Shown: positions 4,940-64,000 of the stretch, in pieces
How the letters are laid out: every line of letters starts with the position of its first letter
How positions within the stretch are numbered: the stretch's first letter is position 1
The notes under the pieces: generated by a model
Told to the model about the DNA's origin: nothing
Database searches by the model: none
What the model saw: only the letters and a program-made list of their open reading frames with translations
Made by a program: the position numbers and the translations under genes
DNA from: Saccharomycopsis phalli
Lineage: Eukaryota > Ascomycota > Saccharomycetes > Ascoideales > Saccharomycopsidaceae
Direction: 5' to 3'
Assembly (NCBI GenBank): GCA_020342235.1
Contig: CP073217.1
Coordinates: 558,001-622,000 of the forward strand
DNA length: 64,000 nt

Positions 4940-5187
4940 CGGTATCATGAGATGACGAGGTGAATATGGACTGTCGTGACTGTGAATATGCGATGCTGTG
5001 TGATGTTTGAGTATTTACCAGGCATGATTACGTCATTTCTTGGATGCCTATTGTGCAATGTTGCCGAAGAATGAGTTATTGTGACTTGTCTGGCTTTATG
5101 ATTTCCTACATGATCTTTACGATGGTTTCTGGTTGTGACTTGAGTTTGTCATGTTCATTGAGTATTTCCCATCTGTTAACTGTTAAT

Positions 5188-5676
5188 CTGTGATTATTGT
5201 TAATCTGTGATTATTGTTAATCTGTGATTATTGTTAATCTGTGATTATTGTTAATCTGTGATTATTGTTAATCTGTGATTATTGTTAATCTGTGATTATT
5301 GTTAATCTGTGATTATTGTTAATCTGTGATTATTGTTAATCTGTGATTATTGTTAATCTGTGATTATTGTTAATCTGTGATTATTGTTAATCTGTGATTA
5401 TTGTTAATCTGTGATTATTGTTAATCTGTGATTATTGTTAATCTGTGATTATTGTTAATCTGTGATTATTGTTAATCTGTGATTATTGTTAATCTGTGAT
5501 TATTGTTAATCTGTGATTATTGTTAATCTGTGATTATTGTTAATCTGTGATTATTGTTAATCTGTGATTATTGTTAATCTGTGATTATTGTTAATCTGTG
5601 ATTATTGTTAATCTGTGATTACTGTTAATCTGTGATTATTGTTAATCTGTGATTACTGTTAATCTGTGATTACTGG
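5188..5676. repeat. 17-bp minisatellite, 28 full copies
   Basis: The unit ctgtgattattgttaat is repeated 28 times in perfect register from 5188 to 5663 and ends in a partial copy. Almost every copy is identical. The only variants seen are tatt to tact changes in the last few copies (from about 5615). Such homogeneity over about 490 bp implies very recent expansion or ongoing gene conversion. Confidence 0.97.
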
Positions 5677-5939
5677 TTGTCTCTTGACTGTTTATCTCTT
5701 GACCTATTTAATTTCAATTTGTTGCAGTTGTAAATGGCATTGGTTTGGTATACTCTGGTGCATATACTGTGTTGGCAGTCTGTTATTTAGATACAGTTCC
5801 ACTGGTATTGGAACTGACTGATTGGAATGGGTGATTTATGTTTAATGTGCTTTGATTTTGGAAGGTCTGATTATAATATCCCAGTTTGATTTACCAGTCT
5901 AAGTGATTTACCATGACTGGTTTACAATCTAGTTTACAA

Positions 5940-7442: not shown

Positions 7443-8414
7443 GGTTTGCTCATGGTGTGAAAATTTCTAGTATTGCAGGGCGGGTAAGTGGTGATGGACC
7501 CAATATGGTGGGTGTTTGGTGGAGACTGGACAAGACTAGACAAGAATGTTTATTATTTTTATTGCTAGGGGAAGAATGAGAATGTTAATTTTCACTATTC
7601 TGACTGATTCTTCTATGCAAGGTAACTGTCTAGCAAGGTCTTTTTTGTAGAGAATGAGTTTCCTTCACGGTAATATTTATTTTTGTATTTAGAATAGATC
7701 GTCTTTGATGTTGCGATTATTTGTCAAGTATAGTTTTCCTCAAGATGTCCTGAGGTACCATTCCTTTTGTAGTTGGTTGAATAGTCGAGCGAATCCATTT
7801 CATCAACGTTATCTACATCTATTCATAGAGCTTGTAGAATATAACATTTGTGGGTATACAATAGTAAAGATGCGTAATGGTGATTATGGCCGATACAAGT
7901 GATGAAAATAAGTCAAGTGGACATTGATTAATCATGGAATATAATAACTAGGATATGAGTTGGTGAGGTGGCTGAATGTATTCATTTGACTATTCCACTC
8001 TGGCTATATTTGGAGGCTCGTTCTAGGTGAAAGAGACTAGGCAAGACTATTGTAACAGAGATGATCTGAAAGAAGCTGAAAAATGGTATTAAACAGACAA
8101 GGTTGAAAAATGGTATTAAACAGACAAGGTTGAAAGATAGAGTTAAAGACAAAGTTAAAAACAAAGTTAAAAGGCTGTTGAAAACTGTATAATTTACAAA
8201 CTATAAATTGTCAACTATAAACTATAACTGTTAATGACAGCCAACAAGTGAAATCCTCTTGTCATTAAATCGCCAACCGTCAACCAGCTCATCACATTAA
8301 ATACACCGTTTACAGCTCCAACATTCTACAATGTCTCCATAATCTACCCAGCACTCTACAATTACTATGCATCCATATATTCCTACCACTCGTCTTGGAC
8401 AATTACTCATCCTC
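7443..8414. other. Intergenic region with a probable old dispersed-repeat fragment
   Basis: No gene is seen. Positions about 7670-7780 resemble the tail of the dispersed repeat found at 37.5, 41.4, 46.5, 46.9 and 63.8 kb: an atatttatttttgtattta start and a later cctcaagatgtcctgag stretch. About 7935-8010 weakly resembles 48210-48285. A 27-bp unit is duplicated at about 8075-8128. Confidence 0.5.
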
Positions 8415-11670: not shown

Positions 11671-11769
11671 CGACACCAGCAGGATTTGAACCTGCGCGGG
11701 AAATCCCAAAGCATATCTCAAACTTTTAAATATTCGAGTGCTTCGCCTTAACCACTCGGCCATAGTGTC
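11671..11769 (-). tRNA. tRNA-Ser(CGA) with an 18-nt intron
   Basis: On the minus strand the acceptor GACACTA pairs with TGGTGTC. The A box TGGCCGAGTGG and B box GGTTCAAATCC are present, as is a long variable arm. The anticodon stem AAGCA/TGCTT encloses CT-CGA-A, then an 18-nt intron (11715-11732), then the last loop base. Anticodon CGA (11734-11736 on the plus strand) reads UCG. An intron one base 3' of the anticodon is standard, and S. cerevisiae tRNA-Ser(CGA) also has one. The intron contains TTTGAG, able to pair with the anticodon loop. Confidence 0.95.
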
Positions 11770-15034: not shown

Positions 15035-15117
15035 TTCCTCATGGCCCAATGGTTAAGGCGCTCGACTACGATAATCGGGGAATCGAGAGATTCCAGGTTC
15101 GAGTCCTGGTGGGGAAG
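15035..15117 (+). tRNA. tRNA-Arg(ACG) with a 10-nt intron
   Basis: The acceptor TTCCTCA pairs with TGGGGAA and the discriminator is G. The A box is TGGCCCAATGG and the B box GGTTCGAGTCC. The anticodon stem CTCGA/TCGAG encloses CT-ACG-A, a 10-nt insertion (15072-15081) and the last loop base. Outside the insertion and the anticodon arm it closely matches S. cerevisiae tRNA-Arg(ACG), which has no intron. A34 is presumably edited to inosine to read CGN. A five-T Pol III terminator lies at 15124-15128. Confidence 0.92.
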
Positions 15118-16279
15118 CTTCTGTTTTTGCTTTAAGGTGCAAGATCTTTGATTTAAATAGTAAAGCTGACTGGAGATTTCAGAACTCAGTTTGTAGATTG
15201 ATCTCGTAAAGACAGATTCTCATATTCAACTGTCGTGGCTACTCTGTGTATTTTCCAAATCTCTTATACTACAAAGTAGTACGAAACACTAACCAACATC
15301 AGAAACTATTGAATTAAAAAAAGTAAGCCACCGCTATCACTTGGCAAAAACTGGATAACATAGTTTAAAATTATCTACAAGTAATGAGCAGATGTTAAAC
15401 TAATAAAGCCAGCTTGCAGAGATTAGTTGGTATTAAAAAACTTCCTGGATTTTCCAAACTATAGGTGATCCTGTAGCCGTTTATAATTCGATATAGAGCT
15501 TACATCCATCTATTCTCGCTACACAATGGATTGCATGTAATACCATTCCTAGATATAAGTCCAAGTGCTTACGCATTTATTTTAAACCTCATTTTAACAA
15601 CATACATTGTATTATACAAAATTTAAACTATAAATTCAGCGGACTACGTAATATGATAAACAGGAATGTCGATCTGTACCCCGTGAAACATGAACCAACA
15701 CCGGTGGCATCAACACGAGAATGCAAAATGTGTAGGTATAAAAAGACATGGATCCGCGTATTAAAATGTTTAGTTTGAATACAATCTTACGTTCGTAACA
15801 TAGCTTGGAATCACTAATACTACCTATGTACACCCTTGAGCTCACGATATTTATTATTCATCAGTACAAGGTCCCCATCTGAAAAGAGACAATACTAGGT
15901 ACGGTACACCTATTCATGTGCCTCGGTACGCAATTAAACGAGCAAGGTATAATGGTAAATCGAATCAAAGCAAGTTGTGAATGAATCTCAATGGCAAATA
16001 GTCCATATTGGCTACATGTATATTAGAATAATGGCGCGTGTCCCATCCGATTCATATATTACCGATTCCACCAAGAAGCACATCAATTGACAGCTCCAGC
16101 ATATTTCTCTTGATGCAAATTTACATTAGATGAGCGATTGCATTATAGCTCTTGAATGAATTAAATCCCATTAAACCGCACAACTCTGGTCGATTCAAAT
16201 CTATTCTGCAATCGATTCAAGCCATTCCATAGCTCTAAAACTCACCCTGATCCGGTCCTCATTTAGCCCGGCTCTTAAA
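15118..16279. other. Intergenic region, no gene or sharp repeat seen
   Basis: AT-rich sequence between tRNA-Arg and RBD2. Only a 69-codon frame occurs (15636-15845, minus), without recognisable features. No tandem array or tRNA-like element was seen. Confidence 0.5.
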
Positions 16280-21564: not shown

Positions 21565-22620
21565 ATGGACAAGACAGCAGTAAGAGCAAAGTTTGTTTCA
21601 GTTTTCGCGGAAATCGTCGACGAGCTCGTCGCAATTCTCAAGGGCTATGGTATCTCCAAAGATGCCATCGAATGGTTCACTCGTAATCTCGAATACAACA
21701 CTCCAGGTGGAAAGCTCAACAGAGGATTGTCTGTGGTCGATACCTACGTCATCTTAAAGGGCCACAAGTCTATTGAGGACTTGTCTGCCTCAGAGTACAA
21801 GAAAGCCGCGGTATTGGGATGGTGTATTGAGTTGTTACAGGCATATTTTCTCGTTGCCGACGACATGATGGACCAATCCATCACCAGAAGAGGCCATCCG
21901 TGCTGGTACAAAGTGGAGGGTGTCGCAGACATTGCCATCAACGACTCCTTCATGTTGGAGGGCGCAATCTACATGTTGTTGAAGAAGTATTTCCGTCAGG
22001 AAAAGTACTACGTCGACCTCATGGATCTTTTCCACGAGGTCACGTTCCAGACCGAGTGTGGACAATTGCTTGACTTGATAACTGCTCCAGAGGACCACGT
22101 CGACTTGGACAAGTTCTCGCTTGAAAAGCACTCCTTCATTGTCATTTTCAAAACCGCTTACTACTCGTTTTACTTGCCTGTCGCCTTGGCAATGTACATG
22201 GCTGGAGTTGCAGATGAAAAGGACTTGAAGCAGGCCCAGGATGTTTTGATTCCGCTTGGTGAGTACTTCCAGATCCAAGACGATTACTTGGACTGTTTTG
22301 GAAAGCCAGAGGACATTGGGAAGATTGGAACCGACATTCAAGATAACAAGTGCTCGTGGGTCGTCAACACCGCCTTGAAGTTGGTTAACAAGGAGCAACG
22401 TGCCTTGTTGGACGCAAACTACGGGGTAAAAGACTCTGCCAAGGAAGCTGTGTGCAAGAAGTTGTTTTCCGAGTTGAAGATCGACGAGCTCTATCATCAA
22501 TATGAGGAGAAAATTGTCACGGAGTTGAAGGCTAAAATCGCAAAGGTCGATGAAAGCAGAGGATTCAAGGGCGAGGTCTTGAGTATCTTCTTGGGGAAGA
22601 TTTATGGTAGAAAGAAGTAG
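21565..22620 (+). CDS. ERG20: Farnesyl pyrophosphate synthase
   Basis: The protein has 351 aa (S. cerevisiae Erg20: 352) from ATG 21565. It condenses DMAPP and GPP with IPP to make farnesyl-PP for sterols, dolichol, ubiquinone and protein prenylation, in the cytosol. The first Asp-rich motif DDMMD is at residues 99-103 and the second, DDYLD, at 239-243. The chain-length pocket residues before the first motif ([14 protein letters not shown]) equal those of Erg20. The C-terminus ends GKIYGRKK, a basic tail as in the family. The sequence uses many TTG and AAG codons, consistent with high expression. Its promoter carries two 12-bp palindromes and a possible sterol response element. Confidence 0.97.
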
Positions 22621-36673: not shown

Positions 36674-37969
36674 GCCATGTGCATATCGTGGCACTAGCCA
36701 CTAGCCATGGACTTGATTCTCTTGCTCTCGCTGAAGGACTACTAAAGGTCAGTAATATCTTTATTCATCCGTTTATCCATTCATTTATACAGATTATTAT
36801 AATATGCTCATTCATTATCATTACTGATTTGTCGTAGCACTTGCTCAGACTTACCATGATAATCAAACACCTCTGGGAGTTGGCTTGTAATATTTTCAAA
36901 CAATTGTTTTCCTCTTTGTAACTTCTGTAAGAGGCAGAGTGTCCAAAACCGCCAGTGGATTAATGAAAAATGATTTATACTAATGATCCATAATGTCATT
37001 TTAAAGTCTCGGCCATGTTTCCAATTGCAAGTGAAAGTGCAGGCTCATTAAGGTGGCTAATGCCTACAATTTTAAATCTAATGTTGTCATATCCCAGCAT
37101 ACAATTAATCTTCGCTTTAACAATAGATCCGTATATACGTTTAAATCCTACGATAAAGTTTATCTGTACCAGTTGACTTAGCCATGATAAGTTGGACTGA
37201 TAGTTCCCTTGGGATTGAATAACCGAATAGAGAAATCATCTTCTTGACTTTTGGAGAGGAGCTTTGCTTTTTTACCAAGTTTCAATACCATTCAATCTAA
37301 ATATAGATACATGCACCTAGTACAACTATATAAACAATAAACATTATTATTAGGTACCGGTGCCTTCTATTAGTTGTTGAAGATCATACTTAACTCACGT
37401 GCAACAAGGTACCTGTAGAATTGACTGCATCTGCATGATTCTAAACTTCGGTCACGTGATCGAGGCATTAGAGGTATAGGTTGAATTATAACGGACTGCA
37501 TTTACAATTTTAATTCACAATGCAATAATAATATTTTGTATTTATATTTAACTATATATTGTCTCCAGAATTACGGTGATTCGATAGATGTACTTTCACT
37601 GAGGAGGAAATGTAATTAAACCCTTTTAGCATAAACGTAGTTGTCTGGGATTAAAACTTAGATGTGTATTGTGCTTCTGATTCATGATGTTTGATATGAC
37701 TGTGCAAAGCCCAAATACCGGTTTTGAGGCAAGTTTGCAGAACCTCATGATGTATTGGGTACGTCTTGCTCACATTCTAGTAAAACTCAATGAGTAATGG
37801 ACTGGTTTGTGATTAGCAAATAGCTCTCGAGTGGAAAAGCCGCCTATTTTGTCTATTCGCTTTTAAACTTGACAGTAAATTCCAATATACTTTAGTCCTC
37901 ACTTGACAGTGAATTGCAATCTACTTTAATCACCACTTTGGCAGTAAACTCCCACTGTAAATTTCCAGA
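36674..37969. other. Intergenic region containing a dispersed-repeat copy
   Basis: No gene is seen. From about 37530 onward the sequence belongs to the dispersed repeat family described separately. 37390-37460 contains two CACGTG sites, one in ggtcacgtgatc. Confidence 0.6.
37525..37850 (-). mobile_element. Dispersed repeat, tail-bearing copy without tRNA head
   Basis: The left end (tttgtatttatatttaac...tatattgtctcc..acggtgattcgat) matches the 3' tail of the SINE-like element at 46908-47366. The right part (ttctagtaaaactcaatgag...ggtttgtgattagcaaatagc) matches 46670-46740 and 48065-48120 but not the tRNA-headed copies. Orientation is set by the tail being at the left. No target duplication was found. 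It may be the 3' end of a longer partner element. Confidence 0.55.
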
Positions 37970-39048: not shown

Positions 39049-40896
39049 ATGCGTGTTACTGAGAAATTAAAACAGGCCCACAAGTCGCCGGATGATAACC
39101 CGACGTACTCATTTGAGTTTTTCCCGCCAAAGACATCCCAGGGTATCCAAAACTTGTACGACCGCATGGATCGCATGTACAACTTGAACCCACTGTTTGT
39201 CGATGTTACTTGGAACGCCGGAGGCAGACTCTCTGACTTATCCACTGAGATAATCAACACCTGTCAGTCCGTGTTGGGCCTCGAGACATGTCTCCATTTG
39301 ACGTGTACAAACATGAGTATCGACGTCATCGACCGAGCACTCAAACAGGCATATGACTCAGGTTGCCAAAACATTTTGGCACTTCGTGGCGACCCTCCTT
39401 TGGATGCAACTACCGAGAATGGGACCTTGGTTCATTCTGGGGAGTTCAACTATGCCAAGGACCTTATTCGGTACATCAAGTCCAAGTACAACGACCATTT
39501 CTGCATTGGTGTCGCTGCTTACCCTGAGGCACATCCTGAGGAGCACGACGTTGAAATTATGATCGATTACTTGAAGGAGAAGATCGATGCTGGGGGTGAT
39601 TTCATCATCACGCAAATGTTCTATGACGTCGATAACTTTATCGAATGGGGGAAAAAGGTTCGGGCCAAGAACATTGACGTTCCGATCTTGCCTGGTATCA
39701 TGCCCATCACCACGTATGCATCGTTCATGCGTCGGGCGAAATGGAGCGAGGTGAAAATTCCAGAGGAATTCTTGGCTGTTCTCGAGCCTCACAAGGACGA
39801 TGACCGTGAAATCAGAGACTTGGGCTGCCAATTGGTCTCTGACATGTGCAAGAAAATCATCCAGTCTGGAATCGCCAACCACCTCCATTTCTATACCATG
39901 AATTTGGAACGGGCCACGGTGTTGATTCTCGAGCAGCTTGGGTTGGTGAAAATATGCAACGAGCATGAGGATATTGGTGTTGCTGACAATGGCAACAACC
40001 CATGCAACGATTTGCTTCCATGGCGTAAAAGTCTCAATCCGCAACGGGTCTCTGAATCCGTGCGCCCAATCTTCTGGAAGAACAAGAAGTTCAACTATAT
40101 CATTCGGACACAGAACTGGGACGAGTTTCCAAACGGACGGTGGGGCGACTCGAATTCTCCTGCATTTGGTGAAATCTCGTTGTTTGATGGCTCGTTACTC
40201 CGTCATTCTTCCAAGAAATTGCTCGAGTTGTGGGGCACCCCTGAGTCCAAGGCTGATCTCTCCAAGTTGTTTATTGATTACTTGGAAGGAAGCTTGGTGA
40301 TGCTTCCTTGGAGCGACCAGTCGATTTCTGCAGAGGTCAACCCGATCAAAGATCAGTTGGTCAAATTGAATGAAAAGGGGATTTTCACAGTCAATTCCCA
40401 GCCTTCGGTAAATGGAGTGAGATCCGACCACCATGTATTTGGATGGGGTCCGAAAAACGGATATGTCTATCAAAAGCAATATCTCGAGTTTTTCTTCCCC
40501 AAGGCCCAGTTGCTGGTGTTGATCAGCAAGATCGAGGCATTTAACGAGTCGAGCTGCTCAAACGACAACATCTTGACGTTCTTTGCTGTTGATAAACTGG
40601 GCCAATTGACCAGCAACCTTGCCAATGATAGTTTTCCAAATGCTGTCACTTGGGGAATCTTTCCGAACACTGAGGTGATCCAACCAACAATTGTCGAGAA
40701 AATCTCGTTCTTGGCTTGGAAAGATGAGGCGTACCGGATCGCCGAGGAGTGGAGATCGATCTTTGATAAGGAGTCGCTGTCACTGAAATTGTTGACCGAT
40801 ATTATTGACAATTACGTCTTGATTAATATCGTCGACAATGACTTCGTCAGCAACAATCATATCTTTGGTCTCTTTTCTGATATCGAATGTATCTAA
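39049..40896 (+). CDS. MET13: Methylenetetrahydrofolate reductase
   Basis: The protein has 615 aa from ATG 39049 (S. cerevisiae Met13: 600). It reduces 5,10-methylene-THF to 5-methyl-THF for methionine synthesis in the cytosol. The N-terminal FAD-binding barrel (about 1-300) shows YSFEFFPPKTSQGIQNLYDRMDRM, VDVTWNAGG, LETCLHLTCTN, NILALRGDPP, GGDFIITQMFYDVD and PGIMPITTY. The C-terminal regulatory domain includes LPWRKSLNP.R, GWGPK.GYVYQKQYLEFF, AVTWGIFP and ILQPTIVEKISFLAWK-like blocks. It is closer to Met13 than to Met12 by these blocks. Codon CTG at 39193-39195 encodes residue 49, where the family has a conserved Leu (PLFVDVTW), supporting the standard code. Confidence 0.97.
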   Translation: MRVTEKLKQAHKSPDDNPTYSFEFFPPKTSQGIQNLYDRMDRMYNLNPLFVDVTWNAGGRLSDLSTEIINTCQSVLGLETCLHLTCTNMSIDVIDRALKQAYDSGCQNILALRGDPPLDATTENGTLVHSGEFNYAKDLIRYIKSKYNDHFCIGVAAYPEAHPEEHDVEIMIDYLKEKIDAGGDFIITQMFYDVDNFIEWGKKVRAKNIDVPILPGIMPITTYASFMRRAKWSEVKIPEEFLAVLEPHKDDDREIRDLGCQLVSDMCKKIIQSGIANHLHFYTMNLERATVLILEQLGLVKICNEHEDIGVADNGNNPCNDLLPWRKSLNPQRVSESVRPIFWKNKKFNYIIRTQNWDEFPNGRWGDSNSPAFGEISLFDGSLLRHSSKKLLELWGTPESKADLSKLFIDYLEGSLVMLPWSDQSISAEVNPIKDQLVKLNEKGIFTVNSQPSVNGVRSDHHVFGWGPKNGYVYQKQYLEFFFPKAQLLVLISKIEAFNESSCSNDNILTFFAVDKLGQLTSNLANDSFPNAVTWGIFPNTEVIQPTIVEKISFLAWKDEAYRIAEEWRSIFDKESLSLKLLTDIIDNYVLINIVDNDFVSNNHIFGLFSDIECI

Positions 40897-42757
40897 TGAG
40901 TTTATGGTTCAACGCATTTATTTATTTATTTTTTAGAGATGGTTCAACGACACAAAAAGTTTGATAGTTTTGTTTTTATAATGTTATGCATGGCATCAAC
41001 TGCCAGGACATCAACTGTCCATAATATATACCGCCAATTGGCTAGTATGATATTGTAATGTTTGATTTTGGCTTGAGAGCTGGAAATTGACAAGTATCGA
41101 CTGACTGAGGAAGCGTGCGACCGTTGTAAACTTTTGAGAGAATCGGGTTTAGTATTACCGTTGGGTTTTTCCAAAGTCATAGCTAGGCCTAATATTAAGT
41201 TTGATAAGTAAAATAGATGGAAACGTCCAGTACCAAGCACCATCAAGCTACAATCTGCTCAATGTCAGGGCCCTTCTCTGATTATCTTCCACGACGTATC
41301 CGTACTTGGAGACATTCCGAACCAGTGAACAACAGGCGAGACTCACAGGTTTGGAAGATTTCTAAAATCTTAATTTAATTTAATAATATTTATTTTTGCA
41401 TTTGGTTATATATTGTCTCTGGGAACACGGTTATTCGATGAGTATATTTTCACTCAGGAACATCCTGAGGCAGAATTTTGTTGAAGAAAACCCTTTATAA
41501 CCCCCAAACTGTTATATGGGCTGAAAAACTTCAATGAGAGTAGTGTTGTCAGTCGTTTAAAGTGGCTGGTTATTGGTTATCCGAGAAGCCTGGCCATCCC
41601 TTGGTAATGCAATTTGGGCCGCTGAATCTCGTGATGATGAACGCAAGACTCGCCGGGATCTATCATTACTCGTTTTCGAGACTTTTGTGTATCGGGATGG
41701 TCGGCAGAGCTTGAATCGGGGCACTGTGCCATGATATGCCCCTCATAAGGCATGAAGCGTTAAGGCATGAGGCGTTCTCCGATTGGCCATCTCCTACCCC
41801 TAGGAATCTTGTTTCAACTCGTTTTGGTAAACTCTACAAGTTTGCAGACTGATTTGCATTTCGGTCTTCATTGCCAAATAATTTGAACAACGCGCTATCA
41901 ATGTAGCTTTTTCCACTGTGTAATTGGGATATTAAACTGAGAATTGCCCTGAATTTGCGAGGGTCTCTATGAAAAGAAGTTTGATTTTGTCTTGGTGCCC
42001 TTTGAGCAGTGTAGAATAGATCTTTTGTGTTTACCTGTAGTGGTCAGGAAGCGAGTCACTATGAGAGGTAGCAGTTTCCCGCCACTCTTTGGTTGCCTAT
42101 TCTGAGGCCATTGAGAATCTGGATGCGGGATCATCGTAGATCCTACATCGATGATGGGAATACCACTTTCAATGTAGGTAATCGAAGTAGATGTAGTCAT
42201 GAATAGCCCCAATGTCAGTCTGAGAATTGAGTTGAATCTTACAATGACCCGACACCATTAGGCTTTGTCATGCTGTTACGTTAAATTTAAAATACTGCTG
42301 CATACACGTTTGATGGCCCAGAACCCCACAATTTTCTTCTCTGAATGTTACAGGACGTGCGATACATCAGACAGCTAAAAATAACTATCAGAAAACAATT
42401 TGCCGTACTGGGATAGACCTTGGCGCATATCAATGTGTCTTGACCATGAGTCGTCAAATGACTACATGTTACGTCAATTTTTGATTCATTTTCTAGTTGC
42501 AATACTGTCCCAATGATACTCATAATTTGAATCAATTAGTATTTTTCTTTCCTTTGTTTGAAATATAAAATATCAGTCTAGGGTGTTCTGACGCAAATCA
42601 TTAGATGCCGTGGAAACCTGAATCTGACGTTAGCTTAAAAATGGCACCGGCATGAGGCATAAATAATATCCAAGGCACAATGCCTAATATAAAATATCCA
42701 AGCCATACTATGAGGTTAATATAAATATTAATCATATCCACTCACTTTTCATTATCA
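40897..42757. other. Intergenic region with an old SINE-like copy
   Basis: No gene is seen. About 41384-41800 is an older copy of the SINE-like element (separate entry). 41801-41890 after it resembles the non-tRNA part of the family (gttttggtaaactct...gactgatttgcatttcgg). The rest shows nothing recognisable. Confidence 0.6.
41384..41800 (-). mobile_element. SINE-like element, older copy
   Basis: It is colinear with the copy at 46908-47366. Shared landmarks are tatatattgtctc, gaacacgg, cactcaggaacatcctgaggcag, gaagaaaacccttta, gggctgaaaaacttcaatg, gagaagcctggccatcc and gccgctgaatctcgtga, and the tRNA-like head at the right end. The A box on the minus strand is TGGCCAATCGG (41779-41789). The B box (GATTCAAGCTC near 41709) has decayed at about three positions. 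A degenerate aatctt match (41366, 41805) may be what remains of a target duplication. It looks older than the 46.9-kb copy. Confidence 0.72.
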
Positions 42758-44194: not shown

Positions 44195-44202
44195 ATGCTT
44201 AA
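44168..44202 (+). promoter_or_regulatory. Two uORFs before MOD5, the second overlapping its start
   Basis: uORF1 is ATG at 44168 with five codons and TGA at 44183-44185, in frame with MOD5. uORF2 is ATG at 44182 with six codons and TAA at 44200-44202, in another frame, so it runs across the MOD5 ATG (44195). If the mRNA begins upstream of 44168, scanning ribosomes would meet both first, which would lower MOD5 translation. Confidence 0.45.
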
Positions 44203-45445
44203 ATACAAACCATTGGTGGTTATCATAGGAACCACAGGCGTTGGCAAATCGCAGTTTTCCATTGAGCTCGCCAAGGAAATTGGCGGCGAAATCATCAATG
44301 CGGACTCGATGCAAATGTACAAAGGATGTGATATCATCACCAACAAACACCCAATGAATGAGCGCGCAGGGATTCCCCACCATGTGATGAGCCATGTGGA
44401 CTGGCAAGAAGAATACTTCATCCACCGGTTTCAAAAAGAAGCGAGCGATGCGATCCTGAAGATTCGCGAAATGGGAAAAGTGCCCATTGTCGTTGGTGGT
44501 ACCAGTTATTACTTGCAAAGTCTTCTTTTCAAGAATCGCACAGTGGGCTCGACTACATTTGCGAATCGCAACGAAAAGCTCCAGGCATTGACCGAGGAGC
44601 AGCAGCAAATTCTAAACGACCCGGCCAAGGCATATGAGCGTCTAGTTTCTATAGACCCTACCATTGGGCAGAAGTACCATCCAAATGATACTCGCCGCAT
44701 TAAGCGGCTACTTGAAATTTACTTTCAGTCGGGAAACAAGCCAAGTGAGATTTTCACCCAGCAAGGCGCCAGTACTGAGTTGGTTGATGATACTTTGGTC
44801 TACTGGCTCTGGCTGAAACAAGGGGTGTTGAACCGGCGGTTGGATGACAGAGTGGACCTGATGATCGAGCAAGGGGCGATCAAGGAAATCCGGGAGCTCT
44901 ATGATACTTTTAAAGCACGGAATTTGTCTGATTTCCAAAATGGAATCTGGCAAGTAATTGGATTCAAGGAATTCTTCCCCTGGATCGAGGGAGCAGAGAC
45001 CCAGGCAGAGAGCATTGAGAAGATGAAGCAAAAGACCCGCAAATACTCAAAGAGTCAGATCAAGTGGATAAGAAACGTCCTTGTGAAGGAATTGCAGACT
45101 GTCACCAACAAAAGATGCGAGATGCATTTGCTTGATGCCACGGACTTGCGCCATTGGCACGAGAATGTACTGGTAAAGGGCATAGATATATACAAGAGAT
45201 TTGGCACGCGCGATTTGAACATTGGCGAAAACCTCAGTGATAAAATTGCGGTTCAGGAGCCGAGAAAACGACCAGCGGACTGGAGGCAATATACCTGTGA
45301 TATTTGCGGTACTGATGCGGATCCGCTAATCTTGATTGGCGAGGGTCAGATGAACGACCACATGGGAAGTCGACGGCATAAGAATAATGTAAAAAGGCAA
45401 CGGAACCGCGAGGATTATGAGTCATGGAAGGAGAAGCAGAAATGA
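44195..45445 (+). CDS. MOD5: tRNA dimethylallyltransferase (i6A37 synthase)
   Basis: The protein has 416 aa (S. cerevisiae Mod5: 428) from ATG 44195. It transfers the isopentenyl group of DMAPP to A37 of tRNAs that read UNN codons. The P-loop GTTGVGKS is at residues about 12-19, followed by NADSMQMYKGCDIITNKHP, VPIVVGGTSYYLQSLLF and DTRRIKRLLEIYFQSG. The C-terminus has a C2H2 finger (CDICGTDADP...DHMGSRRHKNN) as in eukaryotic members. An in-frame stop 10 bp upstream rules out a simple N-terminal mitochondrial extension. S. cerevisiae Mod5 uses two starts for dual targeting, so mitochondrial supply here must arise another way or be absent. It competes with Erg20 for DMAPP. Confidence 0.96.
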   Translation: MLKYKPLVVIIGTTGVGKSQFSIELAKEIGGEIINADSMQMYKGCDIITNKHPMNERAGIPHHVMSHVDWQEEYFIHRFQKEASDAILKIREMGKVPIVVGGTSYYLQSLLFKNRTVGSTTFANRNEKLQALTEEQQQILNDPAKAYERLVSIDPTIGQKYHPNDTRRIKRLLEIYFQSGNKPSEIFTQQGASTELVDDTLVYWLWLKQGVLNRRLDDRVDLMIEQGAIKEIRELYDTFKARNLSDFQNGIWQVIGFKEFFPWIEGAETQAESIEKMKQKTRKYSKSQIKWIRNVLVKELQTVTNKRCEMHLLDATDLRHWHENVLVKGIDIYKRFGTRDLNIGENLSDKIAVQEPRKRPADWRQYTCDICGTDADPLILIGEGQMNDHMGSRRHKNNVKRQRNREDYESWKEKQK

Positions 45446-45487
45446 CTGCTAAACGATGGCGAAGGTGAAGATGCCACGGCAAATTAA

Positions 45488-45606
45488 GAAGCACTGAAAA
45501 TTACAAAGTACTGAAAATTACGAAGCACTGAAAATTACGAAGCACTGAAAATTACGAAGCACTGAAAATTAAGAAGCACTGAAAATTAAGAAGCACTGAA
45601 AATTAA
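45488..45606. repeat. 17-bp minisatellite after MOD5
   Basis: Seven copies of gaagcactgaaaattac with c/a alternation at the last base, starting about 40 bp after the MOD5 stop. Confidence 0.93.
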
Positions 45607-45890
45607 GACAGTACGGCTATATTTAGACTTTTGCACATGAATTTTGGCTATCCTACCGACATGCGTGTTGCTAATGAGGGGAATTGGTGCTTTGTTCTGG
45701 TTCTAGACCTTTTCTGACAGTCCAAAATACAAGTATAGCAGAAACCTTAACCAACTGGGTTAATAACAACTTGAGTGTCACATCAGACAGATTGAGTTGG
45801 CTTTGAACTCGGAAAAATGCTAGATCATGAGTTACGGAGTTTTATACTCCGGAGCAGTGCTGCCGTGGTTAAAAGAAATTGAGTTGCTTT

Positions 45891-46552: not shown

Positions 46553-46745
46553 TATAATATTTATTTCTGTATTTAGCTATATACTGTCACCGAAAATACC
46601 GTGATTCGACGAATATACTTTCACTTTGTAAAAACCTGGCCACTGAATCTCATTTGGTGGAGGCATCCTGCTGCGTTCTGGTAAAACTCAATTTGGATGG
46701 ATTGTCTTGAGATTAGAAAGACTTTCTAGGGTATTGCCGATTCCA
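46553..46745 (-). mobile_element. Dispersed repeat, short copy
   Basis: The left end atatttatttctgtattt, then agctatatactgtcacc and ccgtgattcgacgaatat match the tail of the 46908-47366 element almost base for base. It then jumps to aaacctggccactgaatct and gttctggtaaaactcaat, which match the non-tRNA variant seen at 37.5 and 48.0 kb. It has an internal deletion relative to other copies. Confidence 0.6.
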
Positions 46746-46894
46746 TTTGAGAATTCAGTACATTAGGTTCGAAAGAATTCAGGTTCCTACTAGTTCTTGC
46801 ACTGAGGTCATGTATGATGGAGAAACTTTGTCTTGTCTCTATACTATGAGGGCTTAAAGGTTAATTTTCGTGCTCTTGAAAGTGTCTTGAGTGG

Positions 46895-47379
46895 TTGTCG
46901 TTTATAAGTATATTTAGTTCTGTATTTAGCTATATATTGTCTCCGGAAACACGGTGATTCGACAGATATATTTTCACTCAGGAACATCCTGAGGCAGCAT
47001 TCTATTGAAGAAAACCCTTTATAACCCTAAACGGTTATATGGGCTGAAAAACTTCAATGGGAGCAGTGTTGTTAGTGGTTTAACGTGACTGGCTATTGGT
47101 TATGCGAGAAGCCTGGCCATCCTTCGGCTAAATGCCGGCGCTATCCGGCCGCTGAATCTCGTGACGATGGGCGCACGACTCGTCGGGGTCGTTCATTGCT
47201 CGTTTGCGAGACTTCCTTGTATTGCCCTTCTGAGGCGTAGTGTGCTCTTTCTGGAGACTTTCTTGAGTATTGGGGCGGTTTGGTGGGGCTCGAACCCGGT
47301 AACTACCTCATGATGCGCCCTCCATAAGGCATGAGGTGTTTTCCATTCGGCCAAACCTCCTGCCCCTTGTCGTTTATAA
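46895..47379 (-). mobile_element. SINE-like retroelement with tRNA head and 13-bp target duplication
   Basis: The element proper is 46908-47366 (459 bp, minus strand). It is flanked by perfect 13-bp direct repeats TTGTCGTTTATAA at 46895-46907 and 47367-47379. At its 5' end is a tRNA-like head: A box TGGCCGAATGG (47343-47353) and a perfect B box GGTTCGAGCCC (47286-47296), 46 bp apart, with tRNA-Leu/Ser-like GGAGG at the start. The tRNA fold is degenerate, so it is not a functional tRNA. An about 360-bp body follows, ending in an AT-rich tail (CAGAACTAAATATAC on the minus strand). There is no coding frame. A Pol III promoter head, unrelated body and target duplication define a SINE, which would need reverse transcriptase from a LINE elsewhere. 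Confidence 0.82.
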
Positions 47380-47944
47380 AATAGCCGTTTTCTGACATTC
47401 TTGAATGCTTGCTCCGAACCAATTCGTTTAGCACCTGGAAACGGGATTGATGTAGCTGTTTTATTTGAGGAGGGGTATCTTGAGTTTTTGTTTTAATAAT
47501 CTAGAGTCTGTAGAGCTGTTGCGACTGCAAAATCTACATATTTACAAATCTACATATCTACAATTTTTTGCAATCATCTACAATCATCCACAATTTATAT
47601 ATTAACGTATTAACTAATTTCTATAATGAGTTTTCTGTAGGAATCTCCCATATGATCTTCATGGTTCTGTACCTTACTTTGTCCTATAATGGCCCTGTAG
47701 TAAAATGCGAAATTTCAGCTGTTTACTCTCTCAATATTCTTTTGGATTCTTTTCGTCCTTTCATGTCTTGTGACCCCATGACCAAAGGCAAAGAACTAAC
47801 GAGGTCCATTTACATTCTACAAGAAACCAGTCTCCATGTCAAGTATAGTCAGATTTTCAAGCAATACTTTGACCATTTTTCAAGTTTTTTGGCCATTTAC
47901 AAGGCTGATTACTTGGAGATTTGCACAGCCGTTTGAGATTAATA

Positions 47945-50343: not shown

Positions 50344-50369
50344 GGAAGAGGAATGAAAAGTGAAATGAG

Positions 50370-50530
50370 GGAGGAGGAATTAAAAGTAAAATGAGGAGGA
50401 ATTAAAAGTAAAATGAGGAGGAATTAAAAGTGAAATGAGGAGGAATTAAAAGTAAAATGAGGAGGAATTAAAAGTAAAATGAGGAGGAATTAAAAGTGAA
50501 ATGAGGAGGAATTAAAAGTAAAATGAGTAA
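50370..50530. repeat. 22-bp minisatellite after CGI121
   Basis: About seven copies of a 22-bp unit containing gaggaattaaaagtaaaatg, alternating gtaaaa and gtgaaa, starting about 30 bp after the CGI121 stop. Confidence 0.93.
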
Positions 50531-51439
50531 CGGTGAGTAACGGTGAGTGAATGAATAAATAAAAAGTATAAAGTAGGACCTACAAAAAAAGCGATGCAAT
50601 ATACATGTCATTTCAACTAATCATCTAGATTCAATTGTCGTGGAAATTCCACTCTTGTTCTCATTGCACATTCCCACTGCCCAAGCCCAATCCTATATTA
50701 CCGTAAATCAAATGTACATAAAATGCCCTATAATCTTGTACAATTCTCTGTCTCGTTGTAAGCCTATCGCATTGTAATTCTCTCGTCGTAATTCTCGCAT
50801 CGTAATTCTCCAATCGTAATCTCTCACCGTAATCTCTCACCGTAATCTCTCACAGCAATCTCTCATCGTAATTCTGTCTCATCGTCCCCTCTTCTCAGTA
50901 CACCCAGGCATGTCTAAGAGTAAATCACCGCACAGTACATCCCAAGTGGCTTCGTAATCAAGTATATGCAATCAAATGACTAAGTAATTTAGCGAGACTT
51001 TTCATCATCTATTCAATGTCTATTCAACATGTACTCAACGTGTATTAATGTGGATTTCATTCTGTAAGTCGAACATGCTTTAAATTATCCTACAGTAAAT
51101 AGACATGGACAGCACACTGGTCCATGGTCAAATACCACAATAATTGCCAATCTAATCAAGAGCATAGCCATTTTGTATCACATTCCTTGCACTGTATACA
51201 TCAAAAGCAATTTTACAGTGACGCAATGACGTAGCTCGTTAATTAGCTCTGTTTGCATCTCTAGAGGCATGGCGAAAATGATGATGTGCCATTTGGCAAA
51301 CTCAAACCCAAACTTTGTTAAAACGACGGGAACGACGCCAAGAGACAATCTATTAGCGAGAATTTATGAGCATGGAAAGAGAATGGAAAACTAGCAAGAC
51401 TGTTTGTAAACACCAGGTATTGTTGGTGGACAGCTAGGA

Positions 51440-52250
51440 TTATACCACTAAGATGGCAATCAAAATAGGTGGGTGGATAATTATACCAGATGGAAAAATA
51501 CGATATTCAATTGTACAGTTGAGATGGACAAACATGATATTCAATTGTACAGTTACGATGAATAATTATACAACTAAGATGGCCATTATAATATCAGATA
51601 GTCAGTCATGACTGCTGGGATGGATGACTATACAGGTAATATGGGATCATACCAGATGTGGATTAAAACAGCAAGAATAGATAACATACAGATGAGATAG
51701 GGATTAAACCAGATGGACATTAGAATGGCAAGAATAGATAACTATACAGATAAAATAGGGATTATACCAGATAGAAATTATCATAGCAAGGATAGATAAC
51801 TATACAGATAAGATAGGAATTATACCAGATAGAAATTATAATAGCAAGGAGAACTGCAAAGATAAGATAGGCAATTACACCAGATAGGCAATTAAACCAG
51901 ATAGGAATTACACCAGATAGGCAATTACACCAGATATGAATTACACCAGATAGGCATTATACCAGATAGGCATTACATCAGATAGATATTCTACCAGATA
52001 AGCATTACTCCAGATAAGCATTATACCAGATACCATAGACAACTACAACAGATACGATAAACAATCACAATAGCTATGATAGTCAATTATACAGTAAGAT
52101 AGCCCTTTATAACACCAGACAATTATAGCACAAGGTGGTATTTCTAATACCAGATCTCCGATTATACAACCAAATCTCCGATACACAGCCAAAATGTCTG
52201 AGTATACAGCCAAGATATCTGAGCATACAACCAAGATAGTCTTCAACGCT
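51440..52250. repeat. Degenerate array of ATACCAGATAGGAATTA-type units
   Basis: Over about 800 bp, variants of ataccagatag, gcattacaccagata and gaatagataactatacag recur at 13-60 bp intervals, on several scales. It looks like a higher-order array that has decayed. The right end reads into the 3' side of the cyclin gene. Confidence 0.75.
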
Positions 52251-55506: not shown

Positions 55507-58500
55507 ATGTCAGAACCATTATTCGTTCATGATTCCGACCCAGAAGACGAAATCCCACGGGTCCTGAAGCCCCCGGAATCCAGAGAACACGATTCCACGG
55601 CAATTGTCACAATTGACGAGCCGGAAAAACCCACAACGTACGTCGGGTCCGTGGACGTAAACCTGACACTCTCGTTGAAATTCCAGCAGACAATCCTCGA
55701 GGAATTGCTTCTGGAAGACGCATTGCTTGTCTTGGCCAAGGGTCTTGGCCTTGAGTCGGTGGTGGCAAACTTTCTCCATGTGGTGAGCACTCCTTCCACG
55801 AAATATGTACGGCGGAGTTTGGTGATTCTATTGAACGCCAGCGAGCAGGAGAGTTTCCGGATAGGTGAGGAGTTGAACGAGTTGTCGTGGACGGACGATT
55901 CTGGCGACGTTTTTGGTTCCAATGAGCAGCTTGTGCGCCGGTTTGCCGTGATCAAGGGCGAGTCGGTCATTGGCAAAAAACGTCGCGACTTGTACCTCAA
56001 GGGCGGGGTGATCAGCATTAGCCTGCGGATTTTCATTGTAGATCTTCTTTCGGGCATTGTCGACGCGTCGCTTGTCACCGGATTGGTGTTTTTGAACGCC
56101 GATCGGATCTCGGAAACGTCCTCGGAATCGTTTATCATCAACTTTTACCGAAAACACAACTCCTGGGGATTTGTCAAGTGTGTCACCGACGACCCGCAGT
56201 CGCTCATCAACACCGCAAATTCGGATTCAGGTGGCTCCACATTGAGTCCGCTCCGGATCGTGCTCGGAAATATGCGGCTCCACCAGTGCTTGTTGTGGCC
56301 CCGGTTCCACATCAACGTGATTACCTCGTTGAATTCGCAGGCCGAACTAGGCAAGGTCATTGAGATCAAGGTCGCCATGTCGGACTCGATGCAGAAACTC
56401 CAGATTGCCATCTTGTCGTGCCTCAAGGCGCTCTTGTACGAAATCAAGCGACACAACCCGGAACTCACAAAAGAGCTGGCATTGTTTGTCGACATGGAAC
56501 GCGGCGGTGCCCACATGCGGGTCGGAACCGATATTTCCAACGAGGACGACTACTCAAAGTTTCTCGACGACTACTTCCTACCCTCGGTGATGGGCCTCTT
56601 CCACCGGTCGTGGCACCGGATCTCGTGGACCACTAAGCAGTTACTCAGCGACTTGAACATGCTTCGGCGCATGCTCGGTGACTTGGTGACGGCAGACGCG
56701 GTCTCATTCTATGCGTCGGTCGAGCAGGCATTGCACGAGCATCGCAGCGGCATGGACCGCACCAGCAGCCCCTGGCTTATGTTGGACGAGGCAAGTACGA
56801 TTATTTCTTACGCTAAGAAGCGCGTGTTTGCCGTGGAAAAGCGCCTGTATTTGCTCGAGGAGCTTCCAAAATGGGAGCAGCTCGCGCTTCTTCTTGACGA
56901 CATCTTGTCCGACAACCAGGGCAAAGGACCGGTGTTGGTAATGTGCTCACTGGCAGCCACTGTGTCTCAAATCCGCCAATACTTGTCGACTGTGGTTTCC
57001 ACAAAACTGGCGCAGCTTGACCAGCAGCAGTACTCGGGGCGTCGCATGATGCGACGCAAATTTCGCGATTACCGGGCGTGGAAAGACTGCAGTATAAATG
57101 TTTCAAGGGGCATTGGTGAGTCCATTGAGAAACATGAGGCTACGCAGCAGGCACAGGTGCGCGAGCTTTTGCATACCGATGGCGAGTCGGCGCCGGGAAT
57201 AAATGTCTCCAAGACGTTCAGCAAGGAGCCGCTGCAAAGCAAGCGCCGACGCACCCGAGGCGCGGCGTTTGTGGCACAATTGAGCCAAGTCCATACTGCG
57301 GACTTTAACCGGGACGTGGACGCCAAGGTGGAGAGCGAGATTGCAGATGGGATTGTGGCGGAAGCGGATGGGGACTTTAGCGAACAAGAGGAGAGCAGTA
57401 GCGAGGAATATGAGTTGTTGCTGCGGGCGGACGAGATTGTGGTCGAGAAATATGACGCGAAGCACGATGCACAGGTGCTTGACGAGATTGTTCCAGCGCA
57501 CATTGTGATGTACGAACCCAATCTTGCGTTTGTCAGACGCATCGAGGTTTACCAGGCCGAAAACCGGATGGTGGGTCTGAAGACATATGTAATGTTCTAC
57601 GGGTCATCGGTTGAGGAGCAAGGGTATCTCACGCGGATCCGCAAGGAAAAGCAGGGCTTCACGCGTCTTGTCAAGGAAAAGGGTGACATGGCCAAGGAGT
57701 TTCGGCACGAATCCGGAGGCGACTGGACCAGCACAAAAGGAAATACGAGGATTGCCGGTGGACACAGCATTGTCGAAAACCGGAAGGTAATTGTGGACAC
57801 TCGGGAGTTCCGATCAGCATTACCAAGCATATTGTTTCGCGAAGGCTTTGACGTGGTGCCGTGTGTACTTACCGTAGGGGATTACATTTTGTCTCCAAAA
57901 GTGTGCGTGGAGCGCAAGTCAGTTCCGGACTTGATTGGGTCGTTTGAAAAGGGCAATCTCTTTAGCCAGTGCACACGAATGTTCCGGTACTACGAGACGG
58001 TGATTCTTCTAATTGAGTTTGACCAGGGTAAGTCGTTTGCATTGAACCCGTTTGTGGAGTTTCGGAACCGCTATGAGTCTCGGCTATTAAAGGGTCGTAT
58101 GAAGGATACACATTCGGCCAAGAAGTCGCTAGAGGACGTGCGGCTCAAGCTCGCCATGCTTTTGCTTGCGTTTCCAAGTCTCAGGGTTATTTGGTCCCCA
58201 TCTCCGTACCGGACCGCCGAGATGTACCGGGCGTTGAAGGCCGGGCAAGATGAACCGGATACGGCAGTGGCGATAGCTGCAGGGTCGGAATACGAGCCGG
58301 GCAGCTTTCCGGTAGGTGAGATCCAGCACAATGACCCCGCAATTGACATGTTGAAGAGCATTCCGGGGATAAACGATGCGAATATCGGCGAGGTTGTACG
58401 GCACGTGAGGTCGATACGAGAGCTTGTGGATTTGCAAGAGTGGGAATTGGCGTTGCTAATTGGCGATGAAAATGCAAACAAGGCGTACAGATTTATAAAT

Positions 58501-58515
58501 CAAAATATTATATAA
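55507..58515 (+). CDS. RAD1: XPF/Rad1 structure-specific DNA endonuclease subunit
   Basis: The protein has 1002 aa (S. cerevisiae Rad1: 1100) from ATG 55507. The N-terminal two-thirds is the degenerate helicase-like region of XPF (LKFQQTILEELLLEDALLVLAKGLGLESVVANFLH, later LLDDILSDNQGKGPVLVMCS). The ERCC4 nuclease domain (about 755-900) has GDYILSPKVCVERKSVPDLIGSF, with the catalytic VERKxxxD at about residues 800-806 intact. C-terminal HhH motifs (about 945-1000: MLKSIPGINDANIGEVVRHVRSIRELVDL) dimerise with Rad10. The enzyme cuts 5' of lesions in nucleotide-excision repair and removes 3' flaps in recombination. It is convergent with a velvet-domain gene 213 bp away. Confidence 0.97.
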   Translation: MSEPLFVHDSDPEDEIPRVLKPPESREHDSTAIVTIDEPEKPTTYVGSVDVNLTLSLKFQQTILEELLLEDALLVLAKGLGLESVVANFLHVVSTPSTKYVRRSLVILLNASEQESFRIGEELNELSWTDDSGDVFGSNEQLVRRFAVIKGESVIGKKRRDLYLKGGVISISLRIFIVDLLSGIVDASLVTGLVFLNADRISETSSESFIINFYRKHNSWGFVKCVTDDPQSLINTANSDSGGSTLSPLRIVLGNMRLHQCLLWPRFHINVITSLNSQAELGKVIEIKVAMSDSMQKLQIAILSCLKALLYEIKRHNPELTKELALFVDMERGGAHMRVGTDISNEDDYSKFLDDYFLPSVMGLFHRSWHRISWTTKQLLSDLNMLRRMLGDLVTADAVSFYASVEQALHEHRSGMDRTSSPWLMLDEASTIISYAKKRVFAVEKRLYLLEELPKWEQLALLLDDILSDNQGKGPVLVMCSLAATVSQIRQYLSTVVSTKLAQLDQQQYSGRRMMRRKFRDYRAWKDCSINVSRGIGESIEKHEATQQAQVRELLHTDGESAPGINVSKTFSKEPLQSKRRRTRGAAFVAQLSQVHTADFNRDVDAKVESEIADGIVAEADGDFSEQEESSSEEYELLLRADEIVVEKYDAKHDAQVLDEIVPAHIVMYEPNLAFVRRIEVYQAENRMVGLKTYVMFYGSSVEEQGYLTRIRKEKQGFTRLVKEKGDMAKEFRHESGGDWTSTKGNTRIAGGHSIVENRKVIVDTREFRSALPSILFREGFDVVPCVLTVGDYILSPKVCVERKSVPDLIGSFEKGNLFSQCTRMFRYYETVILLIEFDQGKSFALNPFVEFRNRYESRLLKGRMKDTHSAKKSLEDVRLKLAMLLLAFPSLRVIWSPSPYRTAEMYRALKAGQDEPDTAVAIAAGSEYEPGSFPVGEIQHNDPAIDMLKSIPGINDANIGEVVRHVRSIRELVDLQEWELALLIGDENANKAYRFINQNII

Positions 58516-61003: not shown

Positions 61004-64000
61004 TGGCCAAGAGTCTTGGCAGAGACGATAATATATAGTCTAGACCCAGAGACATGTCTTATACTGGGCAGGATAAAACAATCAGTGATCAACTTGGCGT
61101 CATTACAAAAAGGGTCTGAGGTGAAGCCAGGAGGAGTATGCAGGAGGAGTCTGTCTGGATTTGGTAGCTGTCCGCTGATCTGAGATGTGTGTATGCCACT
61201 GCGTGAGGTAATAGATACTGTGGCATGGATTGAGCGTCCACGCACCAGAAGCTAATGGCGGGTTGCTGGCTTGCATTAATTGCCTGATTATGCGATTTTT
61301 TTTCAGATGAGGCTGCTATTAGTCTGGCGTTTGTGCATGTTTTTGTTTCTTGGCAAGGACTATTTAGCAACATTGGGGTGATCTTTGATTGGGTTCGGTG
61401 AGGTTGCTTTGCGGATCGCCTAATCCAGTTGGTATGGGTTTATTTGAGGCAGTCGGCGATAGCAATGTAGTCTCGGGTGATGGTTAATGTCGTGAATGTA
61501 GATCAGTAAGCTGGCTAATATCATCAATTTAGATTGGTGCGTTGAGTCTACTTGTTTTAATATGCAGTGACTGCTATTTGATACTATTGTGACTGTTTAC
61601 TGTGTTGCATTATCTTATTGAATTATCCATATAATCATATTATCGTAGTATTACCATATCATCCTATTTCCCGTTGTCTTATTGTCATGTTGTCGAATTA
61701 TCCATATAATCAAACTATCCATTATCGAGCTATCCATTATCGAATTATCCATATCATCGTATTATCCATATCATCCTATTTCTCGTCATCTCATTGTCAT
61801 ATTATCAAATCTTAATATGAAATTATCCCATTACCCATCGTATATCCTACCCATCACTCACATTCACCTTCATCGATATCATACCCTCACAAATTTCACT
61901 CTCGTTACTCAGATTTCAAAGCTCATACCTGTTTCATAAATCACCTCATTCCAATAAAAACCTTTGATCCATTGCAAAATCCAACCCTAAATCTTCAGCC
62001 ACTTTAAAACGTGCTACAGCCGTAACGACACAAACTATACCCTTTTACATTTCCTGGACTTTTGAAGCAAAGTTCCGTTTTAGCATTGTTGCCATTATTG
62101 CCAAATCACACATTTGACCGAATCTTGTACCTGAATAGAAAAACCATATCACCCATCAAAAAATCCTATTGTTTAGACATAGTTTTCAGCAAGGATTACC
62201 TTTTTAAAAAAAGTGCATCCAATCTTTGCTCCTAATTGAAAGCCACTGTCGTATTTGCAAATGGGAGTTGTAACAATGGTTCAAGTAGGATTTTCACATT
62301 CTTAGGAATCCTAATCCCTGTTGTAGCTTGTTATCTATAATCCGTGAGTTCTTCAATTATTAAGAAACGGACTAAAGGTCCATTTCAAGTTAATCATGTA
62401 TCAGTCATTTTGCTTCTCTATCCGAAATTTTCTCTATACCATGTTTAGATTATGCCTAGAGGTTACATCATGTGAACAGGTGACGGCTACCAGTGTACAA
62501 TACAACCGGAATGGGCTGGAAACTGTAATAGGTGGTCAGAATTATTTCTTTATCATGAAACTTTGGAACATCGGATTGTTAAATTCCGGAATCAGGCCCT
62601 ATGATTTCACACCAGAGGCTTAAAGGATGGTCGACTTGCTGGCACATTCTACAAGCCAACTAACTTGTGAAGAATCCATTAACTTAGTCTGACATTTGAA
62701 CGCGCTGTAATAGGTATTGGGTCGGATTTCTAATTTTGAAGCGGTTTGTTTCTACTGTTGTTGTCTTCTTGAACTGTGCCATTTATTTGAAAAGTCTTCC
62801 ACACACGCTACAGCGCCGCTAAAAGGTATGAAACCAATGGAAAAGAGAGAAATTCACCAGTTTCGACAACTGACATAAATTTCAATACGGCTGGTTTTCC
62901 CAAACATTCATCGTATGCCTAAATGTGTTTCCAGACACTTTCCTCTCAGAACTCTCAGAAGGAGGACAAAAGATGGAAACAAGTGAAGTCAAACTATTGG
63001 GTATTACCATTGATTGGAAACTTAGCTTATGGGGTCACTTTAGATAAACTTTGTCATAGATGCGCCAAACAGCAAAACAAGTCAGGTACCTCAGCCGAAT
63101 TACCCGAGGTACAACAAGCTGCACCACAATAGCATCGTTCAAGACGTGTGTGATTCTAATCACATAATACGAAATAAAACTATTCTATAACAGCCTGAAA
63201 AGAGGCCAGTGGGGCCATGTGAGTGATATCCTCAACACAGTCTTGCGACTGGCTATAGGTTTGTTCATGCCAACCTCTACACAAACCATCTATATTGAAT
63301 GTCGTACCACCGTCTCATATTTTCCTCAAATTATTAACCAGATGAAATTCATGTGATGGTTCATGGATATGTTCGGCCAAACTCCAATTCGGACCATCTT
63401 GTTTCCAACAATACGCACCAATAGAATCATTGTGTCAGTTCCCAAACGCTCTATTATCCAGGACATGTCAAATGCAACAGGTCAACAGGTTTGATATACT
63501 AGAACCTTTGATTCTATCACCAAACTACTTGGAAAGCGAGCGAACTACGCAATAGAACAAACTCTGCTCAAAGAGAAACTCCTCAAATACAACAGGTACA
63601 ACAATTCCATATCTAGGTGCTTAAGAAATGGAAATAAGCAGATTCATAGTGTGTAATGACCACCCAAGGCACTATCAAAGAGCACAACAATTAAACTTCA
63701 AGCCCCTCATTGTGCACACGAACAAAACAAAGCTTCTTCTATCAGAGATGCTTGCGGCGCAATGGCGATTCTAAGCAAAATCTCACAGAGGTAAGTTGGT
63801 AAAACTCTTTGGCAATAATACTAATAATAATATTTATTTTTATATTTAACTAAGTATTGTCTCCGGATACACGGTTGTTCGACGATTATATTTACACTCA
63901 TGAAAATCTTGAGGCAGCATTGTTGTTGTAGAAAACGCTTTACCAGTCCTCATTCGGCTCCTTGGGATTAAAAACGTTAATTTGAGTAGTTTGATTGTGG
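61004..64000. other. Three-kb terminal region without a recognisable gene
   Basis: Positions 61620-61810 are ttatccatatcatcgta-type degenerate repeats. A dispersed-repeat copy starts at about 63823. Frames of 65-95 codons (for example 62396-62623, 62923-63132) lack any feature of real proteins. Confidence 0.6.
63823..64000 (-). mobile_element. Dispersed repeat, copy cut by the window end
   Basis: The left end (aatatttatttttatattta, then actaagtattgtctccgga, acacggttgttcgac, ctcatgaaaatcttgaggcagcatt, gtagaaaacgcttta, aaaacgttaatttgagtagt) follows the tail and body of the 46908-47366 element in order. Whether it carries the tRNA head lies beyond the window. Confidence 0.65.

Follow-up and report, generated by a model that had tools for sequence, protein, structure and literature searches.

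The closest described elements are the tRNA-related SINEs of filamentous fungi, among them MgSINE (472 bp), Foxy, nrs1, SINE2-1_BG and AfuSINE2 (140-493 bp). The available passages of PMC5063351 list such elements from filamentous fungi and from an oomycete, and none from a budding yeast. For Yarrowia, the accessible part of PMC5014426 describes LINEs and only speculates on SINEs; Ylli is there associated with poly(A) tracts and with no identified target duplications. A further related group is Helenus (tRNA-headed TRIMs), whose fungal members are reported from Pucciniales and some Agaricomycetes in the excerpted text of PMC10886601. The first-pass annotation of the DNA considered here held that SINEs are essentially undescribed in Saccharomycotina. 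This agrees with the open-licence literature in PubMed Central, where none is described among the matches listed (including the available parts of PMC6416283 and PMC5499181), and no yeast SINE is described in the excerpts of PMC8307478 and PMC3510499. SINEs as such are already known from filamentous fungi, plants and animals; what is unexpected is the budding-yeast host group. Saccharomycotina are an unlikely home for SINEs because their genomes are small and their LINEs few.

The window, i.e. the whole 64-kb stretch of DNA that was analysed, contains a 459-bp element at 46908-47366 on the minus strand, running from 47366 to 46908 (copy c1). Sequence and coordinates were re-read from the window. 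In minus-strand sense the element starts with GGGGCAGGAGGTTTGGCCGAATGG, and its two ends are GGGG...TATAC. GC content, determined in 200-base windows, rises to 57.5% in the GC-rich 5' half, and the 3' end is AT-rich. The sense strand contains no stop-free stretch of more than 60 codons, and the only such stretch in the element (74 codons) lies on the opposite strand. Identical 13-bp repeats (TTGTCGTTTATAA) were found at 46895-46907 and 47367-47379, with 459 bp between them. The first-pass annotation had proposed a 459-bp non-coding minus-strand element with an AT-rich end, bordered by identical 13-bp repeats; coordinates, letters and composition of the element agree with this, and the two repeats match letter for letter. 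Within c1, at 47177-47272, the start of an imperfect repeat occurs twice, 48 bp apart (CAATACTCAAGAAAGTCTCC and CAATACAAGGAAGTCTCG); it occurs once in the second copy, c2, described below.

The flanking repeats are the target-site duplication of c1. Its 5' copy (47367-47379, minus strand) reads TTATAAACGACAA in element sense, and its 3' copy (46895-46907, minus strand) is identical. When random 33-base stretches were drawn from the window in pairs, a shared word of at least 13 bases turned up in 1 pair out of 5000. The relatives of c1 end in TTA, and the start of the 3' copy (its first three bases) could just as well be this element end, so the duplication may be 10-13 bp long.

An older repeat of about 200 bp, repeat B, has two copies in the window, each near a copy of the element. 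One is interrupted by c1 and lies in a left part (46809-46894) and a right part (47395-47495), both on the plus strand. Both parts align to the uninterrupted second copy (63553-63750, minus strand), which is a paralogous empty site without the element. When the c1 flanks were joined with one copy of the duplication and aligned to 63553-63750, a score of 127 was obtained, against 43 for the best of 300 shuffles. Taken singly, the left flank scored 83 (best shuffle 37) and the right flank 69 (best shuffle 44). To the right of the insertion, some 15 bases pass before the match restarts; the joined alignment is gapped there, and the site is not base-exact. Because both flanks align to one intact copy of repeat B, c1 came as a discrete insertion. 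Repeat B has the opposite orientation to the element copies at 46-47 kb and the same orientation as the copy at 64 kb; the pair is therefore not a joint duplication.

Six recognisable members of the family, c1 included, were found in the window. All six share the minus-strand orientation, a uniformity that has a chance of 1 in 32 and that the SINE-like reading does not account for. Copy c2 (41381-41800) is near full length; it matches c1 over 314 bp (83%) and has, in addition, a degraded head. Relative to c1 it has 47-49 bp missing after the head, and the head itself carries a 15-bp imperfect tandem duplication (41745-41774). Copy c3 (63825-64000) is a 3' part cut by the window end (75% over 178 bp). 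Copies c4 (46554-46764) and c5 (37526-37881) are diverged and have uncertain 5' ends; c5 consists of tail and body, and c4 of the tail and a 5' body in common with c5. Copy c6 (7671-7772) is a tail relic. A profile built from c1-c3 only detected c4, c5 and c6 in the window at E values of 2e-15, 4.1e-14 and 2.4e-6, respectively; with the reversed window as control it returned nothing at E values of up to 5. Profile matches at 48039-47925 (E 0.24) and 39546-39519 (E 2.1) were too weak to be counted as members. Three matches to a tail profile (E 0.91 to 3.3) were likewise left uncounted; here the reversed-window control yields one match at E 4.2.

Self-comparison of the window at E 1e-3, run with 5921 bases of tandem repeats masked, gave 15 matches. 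Thirteen were within the family, one was the repeat B pair and one a local array at about 10 kb. The family matches end at the element ends and do not extend into flanking DNA; homology between c1 and c2 starts at GGGG and ends where the c1 duplication begins. None of the members overlaps any of the 40 open reading frames of at least 150 codons in the window. Together, the six stretches sum to 1727 bases (2.7% of the window). If the window is typical, extrapolation from it to a 12-Mb genome (an assumed size) gives about a thousand copies. A target duplication of about 7-20 bp is convincing in one of the two copies with a known 5' end, namely c1; the best candidate at c2 is 6 bp long and at chance level (793/5000; gapped 380/3000). 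At c4, where the 5' end had to be guessed, an 8-bp candidate (116/5000) falls within repeat B and was discarded for that reason.

The sequence thus shows an inserted unit that is discrete, repeated and non-coding, has defined ends, is flanked by a 13-bp target duplication and has a 3' tail of about 75 bases in common with its relatives. Among the properties by which SINEs are recognised, the family is short, non-coding, interspersed and multi-copy with defined ends, and c1 has Pol III boxes near its 5' end. We consider it very probable that the nuclear genome contains a real, multi-copy family of SINE-like retroposons, of which c1, a fresh-looking insertion, is the best preserved of the copies seen. 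The first-pass annotation had read c1 as a SINE inserted by target-primed reverse transcription, and had named a single copy, or copies with shared flanks, as observations that would speak against it. With six members in the window the element is not single-copy, the matches between members stop short of the flanks, and there is a paralogous empty site besides; together with the duplication, these results support that reading.

The last ~75 bases of the element (46905-46979 in c1, minus strand; AT-rich, defined by alignment, with an approximate upstream boundary) are the sole part common to all six members, with pairwise identities of 63-84% over the 15 pairs. Even members that no longer align upstream retain the tail. 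Upstream of the tail, no shuffle of 300 was as good as the alignment of c3 to c1 or to c2. The body of c4 aligned to that of c5 with a score of 62 (best of 300 shuffles 41; 0/300 as good). For c5 against c1 the score was 39 (best of 300 shuffles 38), and for c5 against c2 3/300 shuffles were as good. The upstream part of c4 had no above-chance match to c1 (44/300 shuffles as good) or c2 (22/300), and neither had that of c6 (138/300 and 293/300, respectively).

Stringent-type SINEs share their tails with their LINE. The tail might belong to a LINE, with some of c3-c6 being 5'-truncated LINE ends and c1 and c2 being either SINEs built on that tail or LINE-derived sequences with a chance tRNA-like head. 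Such tail sharing would suit c6, which matches in the tail only, and c4, which matches c1 there only. We nevertheless hold this explanation to be unlikely: similarity upstream of the tail links c3 and c5 to c1, and c4 to c5 (0/300 shuffles as good in each case), and no coding remnant was noticed, an observation made without a six-frame scan upstream of c3-c6.

Just before the tail lies a 6-bp stem (CTCAGG/CCTGAG). It pairs fully in c1 and c2, includes a single mismatch in c3 and a single G-U pair in c6, and is broken in c4 and c5. None of its six pairs was changed on both sides (0/6), and the covariation term was unfavourable; a conserved stem-loop at this position was rejected for want of covariation support. 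The exact tail-core pattern had 0 matches in viral contigs and 0 in prokaryote genome contigs, a result with no bearing on yeasts.

Known signatures of other mobile elements were compared with the family. LTRs end in TG...CA, and Mutator-like elements leave duplications of about 9-11 bp. On a second explanation, which we regard as very unlikely, c1 is a solo LTR, or a TRIM with a tRNA-like promoter of the Helenus type, moved by the integrase of an LTR retrotransposon. According to the accessible part of PMC10886601, Helenus has tRNA-like LTRs and is present in fungi, and it resembles c1 in its tRNA-like promoter and non-autonomous nature; it differs in its LTR structure and in the 5-bp duplications of its fungal members, against 13 bp in c1. 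A distance of 143 bp separates c1 from c4, and the two share one orientation, which at first sight makes them a possible terminal-repeat pair. The two are not an LTR pair, since c1 has its own duplication and the bodies match at chance level only. No other LTR-like repeat pair appeared in the self-comparison of the window, and the c1 ends are GGGG...TATAC rather than TG...CA. That c1 is a non-autonomous DNA transposon (a MITE, e.g. a Mutator-like one with long duplications) with chance A/B-like words is highly improbable, for although a yeast DNA element, Mutyl, is named in the available text of PMC5014426, c1 has no terminal inverted repeat (25 bases compared per end; best score 4) and the family is asymmetric, with the 3' tail in all members and the upstream parts variable or lost.

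For the SINE-like reading of c1, the head was analysed by pattern matching and by alignment. An A box (TGGCCGAATGG; 47343-47353, minus strand) and a B box (GTTCGAGCC; 47287-47295, minus strand) were found near the 5' end of the element by matching to consensus patterns; counted from the first base of the A box, the B box follows after 58 bases. The B box called exact in the first-pass annotation is so for the short consensus GWTCRANNC. At four sites in the window, the starts of an A box and a B box are separated by 25-80 bases: in each of two tRNA genes, in c1 and at 4776/4705 (minus strand). The mere occurrence of such a pair in the window is unremarkable, because shuffled windows (40 shuffles) average 1.6 pairs. 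A pair was present in 25/5000 shuffles of c1 and in 4/5000 shuffles of its first 120 bases. Copy c2 keeps the A box pattern and has lost the B box pattern. Neither pattern was found in c3-c5, where heads are missing or unrecognised.

The two tRNA genes were identified with Rfam. The one at 15035-15118 (plus strand) was called by ARAGORN as Ser(cga), or as Pro when introns were allowed. The one at 11671-11769 (minus strand) was called by ARAGORN only with introns, as Stop. Judged by eye, we take them to be tRNA-Arg(ACG) and tRNA-Ser(CGA), respectively, both with introns. The c1 head aligned to the gene at 15035 across both boxes (score 32; 8/2000 shuffles as good). To the gene at 11671 it aligned in the A box only (717/2000 shuffles as good). 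The Rfam tRNA model did not report the c1 head at E 5 (6151 bases searched) or at E 10 (115 bases). On these sequence comparisons, a tRNA origin of the c1 head is likely, if unproved. The tRNA derivation given in the first-pass annotation is supported by the boxes and by the alignment to the tRNA gene at 15035, and not by the Rfam model or the tRNA gene at 11671. Between c1 and c2, conservation is lowest in the head (72%, vs 82-88% elsewhere). This is compatible with decay of a dead copy; it gives no sign of promoter constraint and is not the pattern that such constraint would produce.

By the proposed mechanism, the A and B boxes of the tRNA-like head would recruit RNA polymerase III, and a LINE at some other place in the genome would supply a reverse transcriptase that recognises the 3' tail of the transcript. 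Target-primed reverse transcription at a staggered nick would then copy the RNA, which would account for the long target duplication and for AT-rich 3' ends that differ slightly in length. Pol III transcription of the whole unit is fairly likely. A T5 run at 47047-47051 (minus strand; element position 316 of c1) is a possible Pol III terminator upstream of the tail, and is conserved at the same place in c2 and c3; it could stop a Pol III transcript short of the tail. Five T stop yeast Pol III to a context-dependent degree.

Tail-dependent mobilisation by a LINE is our best guess, which we favour slightly by analogy. In other systems, a tail that is kept while upstream parts diverge reflects LINE recognition of the SINE 3' end, and recognition of the tail by a LINE is proposed here because tail-only conservation has that meaning there. 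A tail shared by members with unalignable upstream parts fits tail-dependent ('stringent') recognition. No reverse transcriptase or LINE was found among the 17 of 40 open reading frames (at least 150 codons) that were scanned with Pfam.

In the same scan, all of the 17 proteins were matched but one, at 42758. Matches comprised farnesyl diphosphate synthase (polyprenyl_synt), MTHFR, tRNA isopentenyltransferase and an ERCC4-domain (RAD1-like) protein, as well as GATA and C2H2 factors, rhomboid, Autophagy_act_C, CGI-121, GH125, a kinase and rhodanese. The matched genes are ordinary eukaryotic genes. The best solved relative of the tRNA isopentenyltransferase was 3eph, which is the yeast enzyme. 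Many short tandem arrays with units of roughly 10 to 22 bp lie outside the main genes (5038-5784, 50349-50549, 45458-45625, 51646-52048 and 2296-2525; 17-bp unit at 5.0-5.8 kb).

For the genetic code, four genes were aligned with solved homologues (21565-22620, 39049-40896, 44195-45445 and 55507-58515; part of the RAD1-like gene was left out). Of the 14 aligned CTG positions, 1 was opposite leucine and 4 were opposite serine. In the same alignments, TTG faced leucine at 61 of 104 positions and CTC at 26 of 45. CTG thus seldom faces leucine and is therefore probably read as serine. This reading is a mark of the CUG-Ser yeasts (order Serinales, NCBI taxonomy), to which Candida albicans also belongs. 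From the codon counts, the host is probably a CUG-Ser budding yeast, which upholds the 'budding yeast' of the first-pass annotation and narrows it.

A larger proposal builds on these results: that this is the first SINE family of CUG-Ser yeasts, of sufficient age for its 5' bodies to have diverged into different forms on one 3' tail, yet with activity so recent that a perfect target duplication is left, and that it forms with its LINE, in a tractable group of budding yeasts, a natural pair with tail-dependent recognition. To this proposal as a whole we give even weight. If true, the SINE/LINE partnership would reach into a further group of hosts, the CUG-Ser yeasts. Such a SINE would also provide a small, possibly genetically tractable system for the recognition of a SINE tail by a LINE enzyme, and the same system would bear on Pol III read-through of an internal T5.

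Among the described elements, the LINEs Ylli of Yarrowia and Zorro3 of Candida albicans represent a possible kind of partner enzyme; they are autonomous and coding, unlike c1. At c1, both the element end and the target lack poly(A), so that a LINE of another habit than Ylli would be needed. From the SINEs of filamentous fungi the c1 family differs in its host, probably a CUG-Ser budding yeast, and in its TTA-like end. By description only, as given in the available passages of PMC5063351, c1 resembles these SINEs in its length and in the combination of a Pol III head with an unrelated body, and its 13-bp target duplication is like those of AfuSINE2 (4-14 bp).
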